DNA of 21,395 bases from a virus. The notes under the pieces are model-generated. The model was not told the origin of the DNA. It did no database searches and saw nothing but the letters and a program-made list of their open reading frames with translations. A program made the position numbers and the translations under genes. Every line of letters starts with the position of its first letter. The first letter of the stretch is position 1. Of the stretch, positions 83 to 21,395 are shown piece after piece. The stretch covers positions 1 to 21,395 of the IMG/VR virus record IMGVR_UViG_3300025695_000114. The stretch is one strand, 5' to 3'.

Positions 83-469
83 ATGGATAACAATAATAAG
101 AGGCAGAACGATGGGCGCAAGTATAACAAGCGCAAGGGTCGAGTCAAGATAATTAAGAACGAAGGTCAAGTATCAAAACCACAAGTGAACAGAGCAAAGA
201 AAGATAGGGCAAAGCAATTATCACAGAAAGCCATTAAGAATATATTTGGTAGTGAAGATGCTATATGGGATGAGGTTGCTAAAGCGGCAAAGGATGGTAG
301 TTATAAGCATTTAGAGATGCTTATGAACTACACATACGGTAAGAGTGGAGAGAACAGAGCAGAGGCAAAGCCACAACTAAAAGCACCAGTTATTCAATTC
401 ATCAATAATACTGGGGAGCAGCCAAAGCAGATTGATAATACCATTGATGTAGACCACGAAGAAGAATGA
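83..469 (+). CDS. Terminase small subunit-like protein
   Basis: A 128-residue basic protein directly before terL. Residues 1-50 are rich in Lys, Arg, Asn and Gln and probably disordered. The middle (about 50-90) looks helical, with a segment around WDEVAKAAKDGSYKHLEMLM. The C-terminus is acidic (DVDHEEE). TerS proteins bind the packaging site on phage DNA and hand it to TerL. Here the role rests mainly on position and charge, since no helix-turn-helix is obvious by eye. Many Bacteroidota phages carry a similar short basic protein at this spot. The stop overlaps the terL start by ATGA (466-469), which suggests translational coupling. No Shine-Dalgarno is visible. TATAGTATG spans the start codon, a string that recurs at the start of the gene at 16303. 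Confidence 0.6.
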   Translation: MDNNNKRQNDGRKYNKRKGRVKIIKNEGQVSKPQVNRAKKDRAKQLSQKAIKNIFGSEDAIWDEVAKAAKDGSYKHLEMLMNYTYGKSGENRAEAKPQLKAPVIQFINNTGEQPKQIDNTIDVDHEEE

Positions 470-1683
470 GCGGTACAAAGATAAATGTACACGAGAAGTA
501 CATACCATTATTTCAAGGACAAACAAGATATTACATTGTAACTGGAGGTAGAGGTAGCGGCAAGTCTTTTGCCGTTAACCTCTTTTTAAATTCCTTAACC
601 TATGAAGATGGACATAAGGTTCTGTTTACCCGTTACACAATGACATCCGCACACACATCGATTATCCCAGAGTTTGTAGATAAGATAGACCTAATGGGTG
701 CAAGTGATGACTTTAGGGTCACAAGAGACGAGATAATCAATATGCACACCAATTCCCTTATAATGTTCAAAGGGATAAAGACATCAAGTGGTAACCAAAC
801 TGCGGCACTTAAATCATTGGCTGGTGTAACTACATTTGTTGTCGATGAGGCAGAGGAACTTGTAGATGAAGAGATATTTGATAAGATAGATTTATCTGTC
901 CGTTCTAACAAAGCCTTCAACAGAGTGGTGCTAATCCTTAACCCAACTACTAAAGAGCATTGGATATACAAAAGGTTCTTTGAATCAAGGGGTATAGAAG
1001 CTGGATGGAATGGTGTCCACACAGACACCACTTACATCCATACAACCTATAAAGATAATAAAGGAAACCTACCAGATAGTTTTCTGCATAGCATCTACGA
1101 GATGAAACTTAAAAGACCAGAGAAGTATGAACATCAGATATTAGGTGGATGGGTTAATCAGCAAGATGGGGCGGTCTATACAAATTGGAAGACGGGGAAC
1201 TATATAGAACTCAATAAAACTTGCTTTGGTCAAGACTTTGGATTTTCTACGGATTTATCTACATTGGTAAAAGTCTCTGTGGATGATTTTAAGAAGGAAA
1301 TATATGTTAAGGAGATATATGGTAAGGCTGGGATGAGTACGAGCGATATAGCGTCTAAAAACAAACAATACGCTGGTCTTGACCTAATCATCTGTGACAA
1401 CCACGAACCAAGACTAATAAAAGAACTTAAAGACTCTGGGGTTAATATACAACCAGCGAAGCAAAAGCAAGGGTCGATACTATCTGGTATCGCCCTTGTG
1501 CAAGACTATGATATTATAGTTGATAGGCAGTCTCACGGGATAATTAGAGAACTGAATAACTACACTTGGAAAGAGAAAGGTACTACTCCGATTGATAAAT
1601 ACAATCACTACCTTGATGCACTCCGCTATGCCGTTATGTTTTTAGCAGACAATAAGAATAAAGGTACTTATGTTGTAAGGTGA
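466..1683 (+). CDS. terL: Terminase large subunit (packaging ATPase-nuclease)
   Basis: A 405-residue motor that pumps DNA into the prohead and cuts the concatemer. The ATPase domain comes first: Walker A GGRGSGKS at residues 27-34, Walker B FVVDEAEE with D127/E128, and a coupling motif LILNPTTKEHW near 156-166. The RNase H-like nuclease follows: GQDFGFSTD (D257, D263), IICDN (D311) and HYLDALRY near the C-terminus (D384), the acidic residues expected for two-metal catalysis. Order and length match the Terminase_3/Terminase_3C (PBSX-like) type. The start overlaps the terS-like stop by ATGA. The stop TGA at 1681-1683 abuts the stop of the minus-strand gene, so the two genes are convergent with no gap. 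No truncation or missing motif is seen. Confidence 0.96.
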   Translation: MSGTKINVHEKYIPLFQGQTRYYIVTGGRGSGKSFAVNLFLNSLTYEDGHKVLFTRYTMTSAHTSIIPEFVDKIDLMGASDDFRVTRDEIINMHTNSLIMFKGIKTSSGNQTAALKSLAGVTTFVVDEAEELVDEEIFDKIDLSVRSNKAFNRVVLILNPTTKEHWIYKRFFESRGIEAGWNGVHTDTTYIHTTYKDNKGNLPDSFLHSIYEMKLKRPEKYEHQILGGWVNQQDGAVYTNWKTGNYIELNKTCFGQDFGFSTDLSTLVKVSVDDFKKEIYVKEIYGKAGMSTSDIASKNKQYAGLDLIICDNHEPRLIKELKDSGVNIQPAKQKQGSILSGIALVQDYDIIVDRQSHGIIRELNNYTWKEKGTTPIDKYNHYLDALRYAVMFLADNKNKGTYVVR

Positions 1684-1962
1684 CTATCCGTAAATCCAAT
1701 CAAAATTCTTTTCCTTTAACTTAATTAAGTCTTCTCTATACTTTTTTACTTCTTTAGCAAGGTTTAGTGCTTCAGTAAATTCTGGTTCATATCCATCTCC
1801 ATCGCACTCCTCTGCCAATTCAATAGATTCGTTTAATCCTTCTGCTTGATATAGTAGGTCATCATACAGTGCATCAAAAGCATCTAAATCATCTTGATAG
1901 CATAAGTCTATCATTTCCCAGAATAAATCTAACGCCTCTCTACCTAATTTCATTGTTTCCAT
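1684..1962 (-). CDS. Small acidic protein of unknown function, only minus-strand gene
   Basis: A 92-residue protein rich in Asp, Glu and Leu, with several predicted helices (LFWEMIDLCYQDDLDAFDAL, EFTEALNLAKEVKKYREDL). There is no signal peptide, membrane segment or obvious DNA-binding motif. The charge pattern and lack of low-complexity noise suggest a real gene. I do not recognise the family. Two starts are possible, ATG at 1960-1962 or three codons later at 1951-1953. Its stop abuts the terL stop, so it is convergent with the packaging operon. Its upstream side is occupied by the six-copy iteron array starting 10 bp before the start codon, so the array may be its promoter or operator region. 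Acidic composition would also fit a DNA mimic or inhibitor, but that is speculation. Confidence 0.6.
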   Translation of the reverse strand: METMKLGREALDLFWEMIDLCYQDDLDAFDALYDDLLYQAEGLNESIELAEECDGDGYEPEFTEALNLAKEVKKYREDLIKLKEKNFDWIYG

Positions 1963-1971
1963 AATTACTTG

Positions 1972-2089
1972 TGTTTAATATGATGGGGTGTGTTTAATAT
2001 GATGCCCCTCTCTCGTGTTTAATATGATACCCTATGTTTAATATGATACCCTCCCCTATGTTTAATATGAGGGGGTATGTTTAATATGA
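1972..2089. repeat. Six direct repeats (iterons) in three pairs
   Basis: The 12-mer TGTTTAATATGA occurs six times without mismatch, starting at 1972, 1991, 2016, 2035, 2059 and 2078. Start-to-start distances are 19, 25, 19, 24 and 19 bp, so the copies form three pairs with a 43-44 bp higher-order period. The base after the core is T in copies 1-4 and G in copies 5-6, which suggests that pair units were duplicated. Linkers are G-rich or C-rich. Such arrays serve as replication iterons, repressor operators or packaging sites. Position beside terL and upstream of the minus-strand gene allows all three. Confidence 0.9.
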
Positions 2090-2263: not shown

Positions 2264-2284
2264 GGCTAAAAATTAGCCTTTTTT
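2264..2284 (+). terminator. Rho-independent terminator
   Basis: A GGCTAA/TTAGCC stem (2264-2269 and 2273-2278) with an AAA loop is followed by six T residues (2279-2284). It would stop plus-strand transcription that runs on from terL before the next promoter at 2492. The T-tract is on the plus strand only. Confidence 0.7.
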
Positions 2285-2322
2285 AGAGACTTTAACCCTC
2301 TTTTGGATATAGTATACCTTTT

Positions 2323-2421: not shown

Positions 2422-2491
2422 GCATTTCTTTTATATGTTCAAAGGTCACCCTAACAAAAAAACCTATCAAATAAAAAAAGAGTGGTTTTTA

Positions 2492-2520
2492 TTTGCGTGT
2501 TAATTATTTTCTTATATTTG
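2492..2520 (+). promoter_or_regulatory. Bacteroidota-type promoter of the small-gene operon
   Basis: TTTG at 2492-2495 and TATATTTG at 2513-2520 match the Bacteroidota housekeeping consensus (TTTG near -33, TAnnTTTG near -7). The gap is 17 bp, slightly shorter than usual. Transcription would start near 2524-2528, leaving a leader of about 55 nt before the ATG at 2581. The leader holds a short GAGGG/CCCTC hairpin (2526-2530 and 2545-2549) and a start-stop pair ATGTAA at 2554-2559. The GGAGGGG at 2525-2531 is too far from the ATG to act as a Shine-Dalgarno. Confidence 0.75.
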
Positions 2521-2580: not shown

Positions 2581-2862
2581 ATGAAAACTTTTAATGAATT
2601 AGTAGAGGCGGCACAAAATAAGGGGTTAAACTTTGAATTCTATTCAATGGCTTTTGACCGATGGGATAGCACATTTTTTAAAAATCGTAAAAAGACAAAA
2701 TTTATGTTTGAGTATAAAGGGAATTATTTTTGGTTTGAGGGTTATTCTGAATTGGATTTTGAAATGGTTATGTTTCAAGAAAAATATTTCCCAGTAACTG
2801 GAAAGTCATACAGCACTTGGAAAAAGAAAAATGAAGCCCTAAAGATTTTAGGACTATATTAA
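2581..2862 (+). CDS. Small protein of unknown function (first gene of the small-gene operon)
   Basis: A 93-residue, aromatic-rich and basic protein with many Phe, Tyr and Trp residues, for example YKGNYFWFEGYSELDFEMV. It lacks a signal peptide or clear membrane segment. A short N-terminal helix (TFNELVEAAQNKG) is followed by likely beta strands. I do not recognise the family. It is the first gene after the promoter at 2492-2520, and the leader has no Shine-Dalgarno, as is normal in Bacteroidota. Small proteins under a host-type promoter are often made early in infection and act on host functions, but nothing here shows the role. Confidence 0.8.
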   Translation: MKTFNELVEAAQNKGLNFEFYSMAFDRWDSTFFKNRKKTKFMFEYKGNYFWFEGYSELDFEMVMFQEKYFPVTGKSYSTWKKKNEALKILGLY

Positions 2863-2881
2863 TAAACGTAAACAATTAGAC

Positions 2882-2903
2882 GGGCCGCATGAGGCGGCCC
2901 TTT
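2882..2903 (+). terminator. GC-rich hairpin between first two genes (weak terminator or attenuator)
   Basis: GGGCCGC at 2882-2888 pairs perfectly with GCGGCCC at 2894-2900 around the loop ATGAG. Only three T residues follow, so termination may be partial. It would lower expression of the genes from 2923 on, or protect the 3' end of the first message. It is strikingly GC-rich for this region. Confidence 0.6.
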
Positions 2904-2922
2904 AACACTTAAAACAATAATT

Positions 2923-3228
2923 ATGAAAAAATCAATTGTAAACAAAGTAAACCTAATCAATGAAATGATTTCAGACTTTAAGTCTTTAGACCTTGAAACT
3001 CCAGTAACCTACGATGGCGGGACTTTTCCTTATTATATAGACTTGAATTCTGTATCTATTAAAAATCAATTTGTATACATAGATGAAAATAAAAGCCAAT
3101 ATGGGTATGGGTTTGAAAAACGATATAATACGAATAGAGAATATGGTATCGGGTCAATGGAGGAGTTAAACCATCATTTAAACCTTATTAAAAGAGTATT
3201 GACAAAGTCACTTAAAAACAATAAATAA
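2923..3228 (+). CDS. Small protein of unknown function
   Basis: A 101-residue basic protein. The N-terminal helix (VNLINEMISDFKSL) is followed by a beta-rich middle with GGTFPYYIDL and IKNQFVYIDENKSQYGYGF, then a C-terminal Lys-rich helix (ELNHHLNLIKRVLTKSLKNNK). No catalytic motif or membrane segment is visible, and I do not recognise the family. It follows the GC-rich hairpin at 2882-2900 and is followed 12 bp later by a 40-residue gene, so it probably shares the same message. The start ATG at 2923 sits in an A-rich context without a Shine-Dalgarno. Confidence 0.8.
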   Translation: MKKSIVNKVNLINEMISDFKSLDLETPVTYDGGTFPYYIDLNSVSIKNQFVYIDENKSQYGYGFEKRYNTNREYGIGSMEELNHHLNLIKRVLTKSLKNNK

Positions 3229-3240
3229 ACACTAAACAAA

Positions 3241-3363
3241 ATGAACAAAGAAACAAAGCAAATAATTAAAGACCTTGAAACCTATTCAAGGGTTATGCAA
3301 AACAATTATTTAAAGCATAAAATAAACGAACTGAAACAAACATTAAAAACAGAAACAAAATGA
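3241..3363 (+). CDS. 40-residue helical microprotein
   Basis: A short frame from ATG 3241 to TGA 3361-3363 encodes 40 residues, mostly Lys, Glu, Gln and Asn, probably one or two charged helices (KETKQIIKDLETYSRVMQNN). It fits exactly between its neighbours. It begins 12 bp after the previous stop and its stop overlaps the next ATG by ATGA (3360-3363). This packing is the main reason to accept it despite its size. No function can be inferred. Confidence 0.65.
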   Translation: MNKETKQIIKDLETYSRVMQNNYLKHKINELKQTLKTETK

Positions 3364-3629
3364 AAAATGTAACTTATAACGGCTGGACAAATTACGCAAC
3401 TTGGCGCGTAATGTTAGAGATTTTTGACGGTCAAGATTTTGAGGATAATGACCCCGAAAACATAACACCAGAATTTTGTGAGGATATTGTTGATATACTT
3501 TTTTACGATACTCCAGAGGGATTTGTTGAGGATTACGCCAGAGCTTTCTTAAGTGACGTTAATTATTACGAAATAGCCGAACATATCAAAGATAATATAA
3601 AGGAGATTAACGAATATAAAAACAAATAA
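3360..3629 (+). CDS. NGWTNYATW-motif small phage protein
   Basis: An 89-residue acidic protein. Its N-terminus carries the motif YNGWTNYATW (residues 5-14), recurrent in small proteins of many phages and plasmids, usually as NGWTNYETW and of unknown function. The rest is acidic and probably helical (EFCEDIVDILFYDT, YYEIAEHIKDNIKEINEY). Its start overlaps the 40-residue gene by ATGA, so the two are probably translationally coupled. The family often sits among accessory genes of early phage regions, consistent with this operon. No enzymatic residues are evident, and the function is unknown in this family as far as I know. Confidence 0.85.
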   Translation: MKNVTYNGWTNYATWRVMLEIFDGQDFEDNDPENITPEFCEDIVDILFYDTPEGFVEDYARAFLSDVNYYEIAEHIKDNIKEINEYKNK

Positions 3630-3634
3630 ACAAG

Positions 3635-3847
3635 ATGCAAACAAAACTAAAAATAACGCCGAAATTGTTAGTCTTATTAATGACCACTAAAAAACAATTC
3701 TTGCTATACAATACAGATATTGAAAGTAAAAAGATAGTTAACTATCGGTTAACTGATGATTACGAATTAACTGGTAACAATAGAAACTTTAGTAACTATA
3801 AGGTAATAACTTGTATTAAAAACGAATTAACCAATATAACTTTTTAA
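3635..3847 (+). CDS. Small basic protein of unknown function
   Basis: A 70-residue protein with an N-terminal stretch TPKLLVLLMTTKKQFLLYN that is moderately hydrophobic but interrupted by Lys residues, so it is unlikely to be a true membrane segment. The rest looks like beta strands (KIVNYRLTDDYEL, NYKVITCIKNEL). It begins 5 bp after the previous stop and ends 3 bp before the next ATG, as expected for a compact operon. I do not recognise the family and cannot suggest a function. Confidence 0.65.
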   Translation: MQTKLKITPKLLVLLMTTKKQFLLYNTDIESKKIVNYRLTDDYELTGNNRNFSNYKVITCIKNELTNITF

Positions 3848-3850
3848 GAT

Positions 3851-4048
3851 ATGAAAACAGAAGCACAAAGCCAGTGGGCTAAAAAACACCAGTACAAAGA
3901 GGCACAATTCAATAAGTTAGTAAGGGATACAGATAAGCCATACCAATTTTGCCTTTATGATTACTATGGCAACAAGACAAACTATTTTAGTATTGATGCC
4001 ATACAATTTGAAAAGATTGGCGATATATTAGCAGATATTCCACAATAA
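3851..4048 (+). CDS. Small protein of unknown function, last gene of the operon
   Basis: A 65-residue protein. The N-terminal half is helical and charged (EAQSQWAKKHQYKEAQFNKL), and the second half is aromatic-rich (YQFCLYDYYGNKTNYFSIDA). No signal peptide or membrane segment is present. It starts 3 bp after the previous gene and is followed 24 bp after its stop by a strong terminator at 4072-4100, marking it as the last gene of the unit. I do not recognise the family. Confidence 0.7.
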   Translation: MKTEAQSQWAKKHQYKEAQFNKLVRDTDKPYQFCLYDYYGNKTNYFSIDAIQFEKIGDILADIPQ

Positions 4049-4780: not shown

Positions 4781-4875
4781 AAGTTACGATTTTGTTTTTA
4801 TTATTCATATTAGTATTGATAGATATTTCTTATAGTGGTATAAGGGAAACTTATAGGAGAACAAAAACAGTTTAA

Positions 4876-4891
4876 TTTGGTATTATAGTAT
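4876..4891 (+). promoter_or_regulatory. 16-bp element TTTGGTATTATAGTAT before the tail operon
   Basis: This 16-mer lies 12 bp upstream of the chaperone start (4904) and is repeated exactly at 16289-16304, directly at the start of the gene at 16303. Two exact copies in front of structural genes suggest a phage promoter or operator. It lacks the host TAnnTTTG box. Confidence 0.5.
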
Positions 4892-4903
4892 AAATAAAGA
4901 AAT

Positions 4904-12348: not shown

Positions 12349-12392
12349 AACAAAAACCAATAAATCAAGTGTTATAATATAATTCTTTCCTT

Positions 12393-16260: not shown

Positions 16261-16288
16261 TTATATAAAAAAAACAAAAATATACTTT

Positions 16289-16304
16289 TTTGGTATTATA
16301 GTAT
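16289..16304 (+). promoter_or_regulatory. Second copy of the 16-bp element
   Basis: TTTGGTATTATAGTAT matches 4876-4891 exactly. It lies between the terminator at 16232 and the gene at 16303, and its last two bases are the first two of that gene's ATG. If it is a promoter, the message would be leaderless or start downstream at another codon. Confidence 0.5.
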
Positions 16305-19962: not shown

Positions 19963-21395
19963 ATGAGTTTATTAAAGAAAGCGAATATTATAACGACCCC
20001 TACTGCTTATTCAGATGGTAAACTACATAGTGTAAAGCCAGAGATTGCTTTAGGGCCAGAACTTGTAACAAATGGTGATTTTGCAACGGATAGTGATTGG
20101 GATGAAACAGGAACTTGGAGTATAGAAAATAATTATGCAACTGCTAGTGGAAATGGTACATCTCAATATATACAACAAGACTTTACTATTACAAATGGAA
20201 AAGCATATTTATTTACTTATGAAATAAAAGAAAATACTTTAAATGGTGCTGGCTCGTCTTTAAGTGGTTCAGGTGGTTTTGTTCAAATATTTTTAAGTAA
20301 TGTAATAGGAACTCATCAAGTATATATAACTGCTGATGATTCAGGTGCTGCTTATGCTTTAAAAATAGGTGTATCAGCAACTGCAACAACAGGAACAATA
20401 AAAATAGACAACGTATCAATAAAAGAGGACATCTCCGCTGATTTCGATTTCACAAGAAATTCCTCAGCGACAAGAGTAAACGAATTAGGGTACATTGAAG
20501 ATGTTCAGATAATCGGGGGAGAGTTAGTATCTAATGGTGATTTTGAGGAAGTAGGAAGTGAGAAGGTTACTAATGGTGATTTTGCTACTGATAGTTATTG
20601 GTCGTTTATAGGGACTGCAAATATTAGCGGAGGTACTGCAAATTTCCCAGATACAACTAATAGTTATATTATTCAATCAAGTGTCGTTCCTTTATCAGTA
20701 AAACAATATCGCTTACAATATGAAGTAACTGATACAAATGGTGGCGGTTTGAAATTATCTGGCGGAAGTAGTGCTTTTGGCATTGTTAATTTACCTAGCA
20801 CTTTAGGTGTGCATACTGTGTATTTAACATCTAACGGCACAAGAAGTAATTTACAATTTAACAATATTGCTGCTTTCGCTGGCTCAATAGACAACGTATC
20901 GGTTAAAGAAGTCGGTCAGAATTGGAGTTTTATTGGAGAGGCAGAATTTATTGAAAGTGCTGCAAGGATTTATTCAAGTTCTGGTAGTGTTTCTGGCATT
21001 AACCAAAGTAGTGTTCTTACAATATCAAATAAGTATAGAATACAATACGAAATTGTTTCAAATACCAATGGAAGTCTTAAAATACAAGGTGTTCAAATAC
21101 CTTCAAGTGTTGGCACACATAGTTACGATTTTATCGCATCTTCAGCGGGTTTAGAAATATTAAGAGATAGCGGTGTAACAGACATCACAATAGACAACGT
21201 ATCAGTCAAAAAAATAACAGACGATACAAACCTACCAAGAATAAACTATGAAGGGGGTAAAGGGCATTTATTGCTTGAGGGGCAGTCAACGAATCTTGTG
21301 CCTTATTCAGAAGATTTTAGTCAATGGACTGCTGGCGGTGATACAACTATTGAAAGCGGTTATTTAGCACCAGACGGTACTAACAATGCCTACAA
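19963..21395 (+). CDS. Tail fibre or receptor-binding protein with repeated modules (3' truncated)
   Basis: An open frame from ATG 19963 reaches the right edge without a stop (477 complete codons). The first 30 residues (SLLKKANIITTPTAYSDGKL) look like a virion-attachment start. Three beta-rich, carbohydrate-binding-like modules follow at about 31-156, 200-316 and 320-417. The first two start with ELVTNGDFATDSDW or EKVTNGDFATDSYW, and all three end in IDNVS[IV]K. Between modules 1 and 2 sits ADFDFTRNSSATRVNELGYI, and after module 3 comes LPRINYEGGKGHLLLEGQST, two segments normally adjacent in phage fibres of this kind. The protein probably binds a host surface glycan. The C-terminal part lies outside the window, so any peptidase or depolymerase domain there cannot be seen. 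Confidence 0.8.
   Translation, partial: MSLLKKANIITTPTAYSDGKLHSVKPEIALGPELVTNGDFATDSDWDETGTWSIENNYATASGNGTSQYIQQDFTITNGKAYLFTYEIKENTLNGAGSSLSGSGGFVQIFLSNVIGTHQVYITADDSGAAYALKIGVSATATTGTIKIDNVSIKEDISADFDFTRNSSATRVNELGYIEDVQIIGGELVSNGDFEEVGSEKVTNGDFATDSYWSFIGTANISGGTANFPDTTNSYIIQSSVVPLSVKQYRLQYEVTDTNGGGLKLSGGSSAFGIVNLPSTLGVHTVYLTSNGTRSNLQFNNIAAFAGSIDNVSVKEVGQNWSFIGEAEFIESAARIYSSSGSVSGINQSSVLTISNKYRIQYEIVSNTNGSLKIQGVQIPSSVGTHSYDFIASSAGLEILRDSGVTDITIDNVSVKKITDDTNLPRINYEGGKGHLLLEGQSTNLVPYSEDFSQWTAGGDTTIESGYLAPDGTNNAY

Follow-up and report, generated by a model that had tools for sequence, protein, structure and literature searches.

An oriented array of iterated sites behind terL in marine phages, and its possible role as a one-way transcription barrier at an operon boundary

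What is the role of six perfect copies of a 12-base sequence, TGTTTAATATGA, lined up beside the terminase gene of a virus? The window analysed here spans an entire IMG/VR virus record (21,395 bases; record and window are identical), and the phages that carry such arrays are a little-known marine group. The original prediction had described six perfect copies at alternating steps of 19 and 24-25 bp next to terL, took them for a selected array of protein-binding sites and named three roles: replication iterons, an operator for the neighbouring minus-strand gene, or a packaging site bound by the terminase. The array and its surroundings in the window are as follows.

83-469, plus strand: TerS-like gene (family 1)
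466-1683, plus strand: terL (Terminase_3); the array lies right after terL in most relatives
1684-1962, minus strand: small gene between terL and the array, also present in loci L049 and L064
1972-2096, plus strand: array of six units, each a TGTTTAATATGA core and a G- or C-run linker (exact matches)
1972-2002, plus strand: pair 1, cores 1972-1983 and 1991-2002
2016-2046, plus strand: pair 2, cores 2016-2027 and 2035-2046
2059-2089, plus strand: pair 3, cores 2059-2070 and 2078-2089
2098-2115, no strand: GC-rich inverted repeat CTGGGT-N6-ACCCAG, directly 3' of the array
2125-2300, no strand: AT-rich stretch beyond the array (24% GC; window, 37%)
2127-2147, no strand: dyad TATTTAGA-N5-TCTAAATA, read from the sequence
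2264-2286, plus strand: intrinsic-terminator-like hairpin with a T-run (one found vs 0.5 expected in shuffles)
2490-2520, plus strand: possible Bacteroidota-type promoter of the small-gene operon (TAnnTTTG at 2513-2520, which we take to be the Bacteroidota promoter consensus)
2581-4048, plus strand: small-gene operon of five ORFs, 3' of the array

The six exact copies start at positions 1972, 1991, 2016, 2035, 2059 and 2078, all on the plus strand, with successive start-to-start steps of 19, 25, 19, 24 and 19, as predicted, and the whole record contains no further exact copy outside 1972-2089. In 60 dinucleotide shuffles, no 12-mer occurred more than twice per 150 bp, compared with six times in the real sequence. 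With up to two mismatches allowed, TGTTTAATATGA is matched 13 times in the window, the six exact copies among them (mean expected, 6.2), and the two-mismatch copies elsewhere are at chance level. A full unit measures about 19 bp and consists of the 12-mer followed by a run of G or, less often, of C; the linkers in the window read, in order, TGGGGTG, TGCCCCTCTCTCG, TACCCTA, TACCCTCCCCTA, GGGGGTA and GGGGGGG. Across loci with this core (type I), 178 of the 298 neighbour spacings of at most 60 measure exactly 19, and the linkers of 164 distinct units (those with at most one mismatch, from 80 type I loci) contain GGG in 142 cases, CCC in 20 and neither in two. The linkers had been called diverged, which is correct as far as it goes, but the near-constant G- or C-run (162 of the 164 distinct units) had been overlooked, and with it the composite nature of the unit, as had its fixed orientation, its placement at operon ends and the exchange of cassettes across it.

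A search of relatives for the 12-mer and its spacing, suggested at the outset, recovered a TGTTTAATATGA pair with a 7-base gap in 79 virus contigs (exact scan), one of them from the same phage (L049 in record G009, which matches the window at 99.9% identity across 16,044 bp and reaches 3,956 bp further left). That the pair is kept in so many contigs supports the original view of a selected array of iterated sites, which are probably bound by a protein. In TerL relatives, the same place is occupied by drifted cores, namely TTAAACATAGTA (type II), TTAAACGCAGTA (type III), TTTAACATAGTA (type IV) and TGTTTAACATGA (type V), the type II and type III cores each being present in at least 120 contigs; G035 likewise retains the place with a drifted core. 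No array was seen in the relatives G033, G027, G032 and P12024L or in four named cultured phages that were checked (one in part), and BLAST searches for arrays in named phages returned weak, short matches only; a match in Marine virus AG-345-E15 lies inside coding sequence and was set aside as apparently due to chance. The idea of a host chromosomal motif was also dropped, a scan of species genomes having given four places (L085-L088) with other linkers, which we judged unrelated or chance. One of these, at 2606-2659 of L088 (a Neisseriaceae bin), comprises three 21-bp repeats with the core GTTTAATATGAC and a different linker, located just upstream of a gene that, in our own reading of the protein, resembles a plasmid replication initiator; these repeats are probably unrelated iterons. 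Separately, L355, a stretch of a 193.7 kb virus contig, contains a cluster of TACTGCGTTTAA-like repeats, which correspond to the type III core in reverse complement. In the literature outside subscription papers, we found no description of the motif or of such arrays, and searches on flavobacterial phages (iterons, direct repeats) and on DnaA-like phage proteins likewise gave nothing relevant. The array is best placed among oriented, iterated, probably regulatory sites, a kind already known.

The orientation of these sites is fixed. All 114 type I matches lie on a single strand per record (17 records; four of the 114 are away from the array), and so do all 89 matches of types II-IV (11 records). 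TerL shares the strand of the array in 77 of the 80 type I loci, the other three being without TerL in the fetched stretch, and the position beside terL noted at the outset is the usual one: the first unit begins at most 22 nt past the terL stop codon in 60 of the 77 type I loci with a usable TerL 3' end. For types II and III, among the matches listed, a same-strand gene precedes 266 of 286 arrays, 63 arrays start on, or overlap, the stop codon that ends the upstream gene, and terL accounts for 120 of the 233 upstream genes that end within 150 bp, the others including genes that we read as tail-protein-like, lysin-like and tape measure. Also among the matches listed, the gap to the next gene is 60-600 bp in 196 of the 223 type II and III arrays with a same-strand downstream gene. 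Type I arrays are confined to the terL/small-gene region (one region per record, 17 of 17); types II and III have multiple arrays per genome, at several operon ends, some of them in short gaps without an AT-rich stretch, and some lone type II and III sites lie inside ORFs. In G010, where terS/terL (16.3-17.9 kb) and the array (28.6-29.1 kb) are about 11 kb apart, the array still precedes an AT-rich gap and small genes despite the relocated terL, and in L038 and L068 only minus-strand genes come before the second array. Like the window (dyad at 2127-2147), many relatives have a second conserved element after their arrays, a dyad like TTATTTAGA-N-TCTAAATAA, which is sometimes present in multiple copies (three in L145).

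Repeats resembling AACAAAA-N-GTATTATAGTAT stand before late genes (window positions 4860-4903, 16273-16302, 49-82 and 12349-12392), and in relatives AACAAAA-N-GTTATC precedes tail, TerS-like, protease and pre-portal genes; these motifs are possibly promoters for the ECF-like sigma factor of the phages (family 4, in 28 of 32 genomes). The late-promoter-like motif was considered as the meaning of the array itself and dropped. Direct repeats are also found in the tail-fibre-like gene at 19963-21395 (IDNVSVKE and GDFATDS stretches).

In many of the phages, two arrays in the same orientation flank variable small genes, type I phages often having two arrays kilobases apart; the region equivalent to the small-gene operon of the window differs among relatives, and single-array relatives show fusion of the paired arrays. 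Five locus pairs (L012 vs L026, L057 vs L026, L012 vs L009, L036 vs L026 and L021 vs L005) differ by array-bordered indels, in which the alignment runs through array A and resumes in array B, skipping 1.0-2.2 kb; the L012 and L057 events are hardly independent, since the two are alike in the array. When L003 and L059 are compared with L070, a crossover is found at a unit, TerL DNA being 72-73% identical and the sequence from the unit onward 92-94%, and between L004 and L023, which share 98.7% identity across 6.9 kb, the array varies by two units. These comparisons together indicate that units are added to and lost from the arrays, which also serve as borders for recombination. Array-bordered transfers between clades were sought with a strict filter, which yielded no more than eight hits, two of which start at a unit, and the notion that exchange between distant clades is common is therefore unsupported. 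In addition, the G025 contig (L200/L201) wraps around the genome and contains the same array in 3- and 4-unit versions, which suggests copy-number variation within one population.

Sites that keep one orientation where transcription units end are reminiscent of stoperators, and for this reason we favour, with a probability of roughly 0.4, a reading by analogy in which the array is an operon-boundary element that would act as a stoperator-like, one-way transcription barrier, with cassette exchange as a by-product. In the proposed model, the tandem asymmetric sites, each an AT-rich 12-bp core with a G- or C-run, would be read as double-stranded DNA, because the G-run is exchangeable for a C-run (142/20/2) and RNA folding is not conserved. 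The sites point with transcription where the terL (late) unit ends, ahead of the AT-rich zone with the putative promoter of the small-gene operon; a protein would bind to them, and the bound sites would stop or insulate RNA polymerase travelling from left to right, as repressor-bound stoperators do in mycobacteriophages, while homology between the repeats would allow cassettes to recombine in and out. In the published account (PMC9283540), the stoperators of the cluster A mycobacteriophages L5 and TipsytheTRex are asymmetric, are set along the direction of transcription and no longer work in the reverse orientation, and the arrays share with the sites described there their asymmetry, near-equal length, location in intergenic gaps and transcription-linked orientation (within each record a single strand carries every match, 114 of 114 and 89 of 89).

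The likeness to stoperators has limits. Stoperators are single sites, whereas the arrays are tandem and placed at operon ends; as to a genome-wide distribution over gaps, types II and III have sites at several operon ends and some inside ORFs, and type I is limited to one region. Nor do these phages look like temperate phages with a repressor, as both an HTH_3 repressor over the cut-off and a tyrosine integrase (Phage_integrase) were found in 0 of 22 genomes, so that a lysogenic repressor of the stoperator type is not in sight. Further points against a barrier are the second arrays of L038 and L068, which are not behind a same-strand gene, the lone type II and III sites inside ORFs and the terminator-like hairpin downstream in the window, which would make a roadblock there partly redundant.

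Which protein might bind? The leading phage-encoded candidate is a stand-alone DnaA-type DNA-binding domain, and the evidence on it points both ways. A DnaA box occupied by DnaA can act as an orientation-dependent block to RNA polymerase. The candidate, a protein of 178 residues encoded at 2723-3256 of G009, some 0.7-1.2 kb left of where the window begins, exceeds the DnaA C-terminal domain cut-off, and its predicted structure (mean pLDDT 85) has the DnaA DNA-binding domain as best match (probability 1.00, target TM 0.75, E 0.012), with no structure match at E below 0.001. By BLAST clustering, the family occurs in 28 of 32 genomes, but the protein is also present in the array-less G032, G033 and P12024L. 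By eye, the cores of types II-IV share six of the eight fixed positions of the DnaA-box consensus TTWTNCACA, the type I core only four; the window has no exact TTATCCACA, and its one-mismatch matches number 12 against 7.5 expected. The recognition helix varies among phages sharing an identical core and does not track core type, which leaves the protein unsupported as a proven binder, and we do not regard it as one. We think it quite doubtful that, in full, lytic marine phages use an ATPase-less stand-alone DnaA domain on diverged DnaA-box-like arrays, serving as one-way operon-end barriers and as homology for cassette swaps, in a stoperator-like system without lysogeny.

A replication origin, with the repeats as iterons that a phage initiator would recognise and the AT-rich stretch as the unwinding element, appears somewhat unlikely. 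Iteron origins are known from plasmids and phages, for example lambda ori and RSF1010 oriV, and the arrays share with them direct repeats spaced by about 20 bp and an AT-rich neighbour: in the window, the repeats adjoin the stretch of 24% GC and the dyads. Moreover, type I has one array region per record (17 of 17), the phages encode a RepA-like AAA_25 helicase (in 18 of 18 array-bearing and one of four array-less genomes, the exception being G033) as well as the DnaA-type domain, and the bacterial L088 match, for all its other linkers, places similar repeats upstream of what we read as a plasmid-initiator-like gene. However, in types II and III several arrays are spread over different operon ends, that of a late tail-protein-like gene among them; some arrays, type III examples among them, have no AT-rich segment beside them, others overlap stop codons, and type I itself often has two arrays. 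G033 has both the helicase and the DnaA-type gene without an array, and the missing exact TTATCCACA also counts against an origin. GC skew, proposed earlier as a comparison, tracks gene strand and does not switch at the array; confounded in this way, it was discarded as a test and lends no support to an origin here. A unique origin would suit the window and type I, though not the multi-array types II and III, and the iteron role first suggested, while possible, sits poorly with arrays at the operon ends of those relatives.

An operator for neighbouring promoters, those of the early operon and of the minus-strand gene of the window, bound by a phage or host regulator, is in our view unlikely. 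The start codon of the minus-strand gene is 9 nt from the first unit, promoter-like boxes follow at 2235 and 2513, and, as noted above, type II and III arrays with a same-strand downstream gene mostly have it at a distance of 60-600 bp (196 of 223 among the matches listed). These boxes, the nearest ones, are nevertheless about 145 and 420 bp past the array, the overlap with upstream stop codons is not needed by an operator, and most relatives are without the minus-strand gene at the terL-array junction, so that the operator originally proposed for this gene, though conceivable, was too narrow a reading. At 2235-2286 of the window, a promoter-like box is followed within 50 bp by the terminator-like hairpin, a possible source of a short leader RNA.

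It is decidedly unlikely that the repeats are retained solely as borders for the exchange of small-gene cassettes. Cassette indels do have their ends inside arrays for the five locus pairs, and a unit is the site of one crossover, but the fixed orientation and exact placement at stop codons need another cause, arrays also stand behind conserved late genes without a cassette, and the strict search between clades gave its eight hits only. T4-like phages have promoter-early-stem-loop cassettes, in which, as here, a repeated intergenic motif borders exchangeable small genes; unlike that motif, the array unit is without an internal stem-loop or promoter.

An RNA element, that is, hairpins in the transcript or a family of 3'-end terminators, is very improbable. 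The array region of the window folds with a z-score of -3.7 on the plus and -2.6 on the minus strand, the inverted repeat at 2098-2115 is paired in the predicted RNA fold, and in one clade the G-run of the first unit forms, in our own reading, the 5' arm of a terminator-like hairpin. Fold scores are uneven, however, with 12 of 20 arrays above -1 and seven below -2, and on these scores a conserved RNA structure was rejected; G-run and C-run units are interchangeable, and the window contains no match to an Rfam family and no tRNA.

A packaging (pac or cos) site bound by the small terminase, the last of the roles first put forward, is extremely improbable: the array adjoins terL in most relatives and the TerS-like family is present in 18 of 18 array-bearing and one of four array-less genomes (again G033), but the array is not kept with its cognate terminase either in G010, where it was left behind by a terL now about 11 kb away, or in G033, a close relative without an array, an absence that the original prediction had named as counting against it, even though the TerL and TerS-like proteins of G033 are 91% and 83% identical to those of the window; types II and III have multiple arrays per genome, and the model of the TerS-like protein shows a small helical core only, at modest confidence (mean pLDDT 70).

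For the phages themselves, the arrays offer a visible record of the gain and loss of small accessory genes. If the arrays are indeed transcription barriers, control of the stoperator type would extend to phages without an integrase, and the arrays would provide a handle for locating, among uncultured genomes, the operons and accessory genes of phages.
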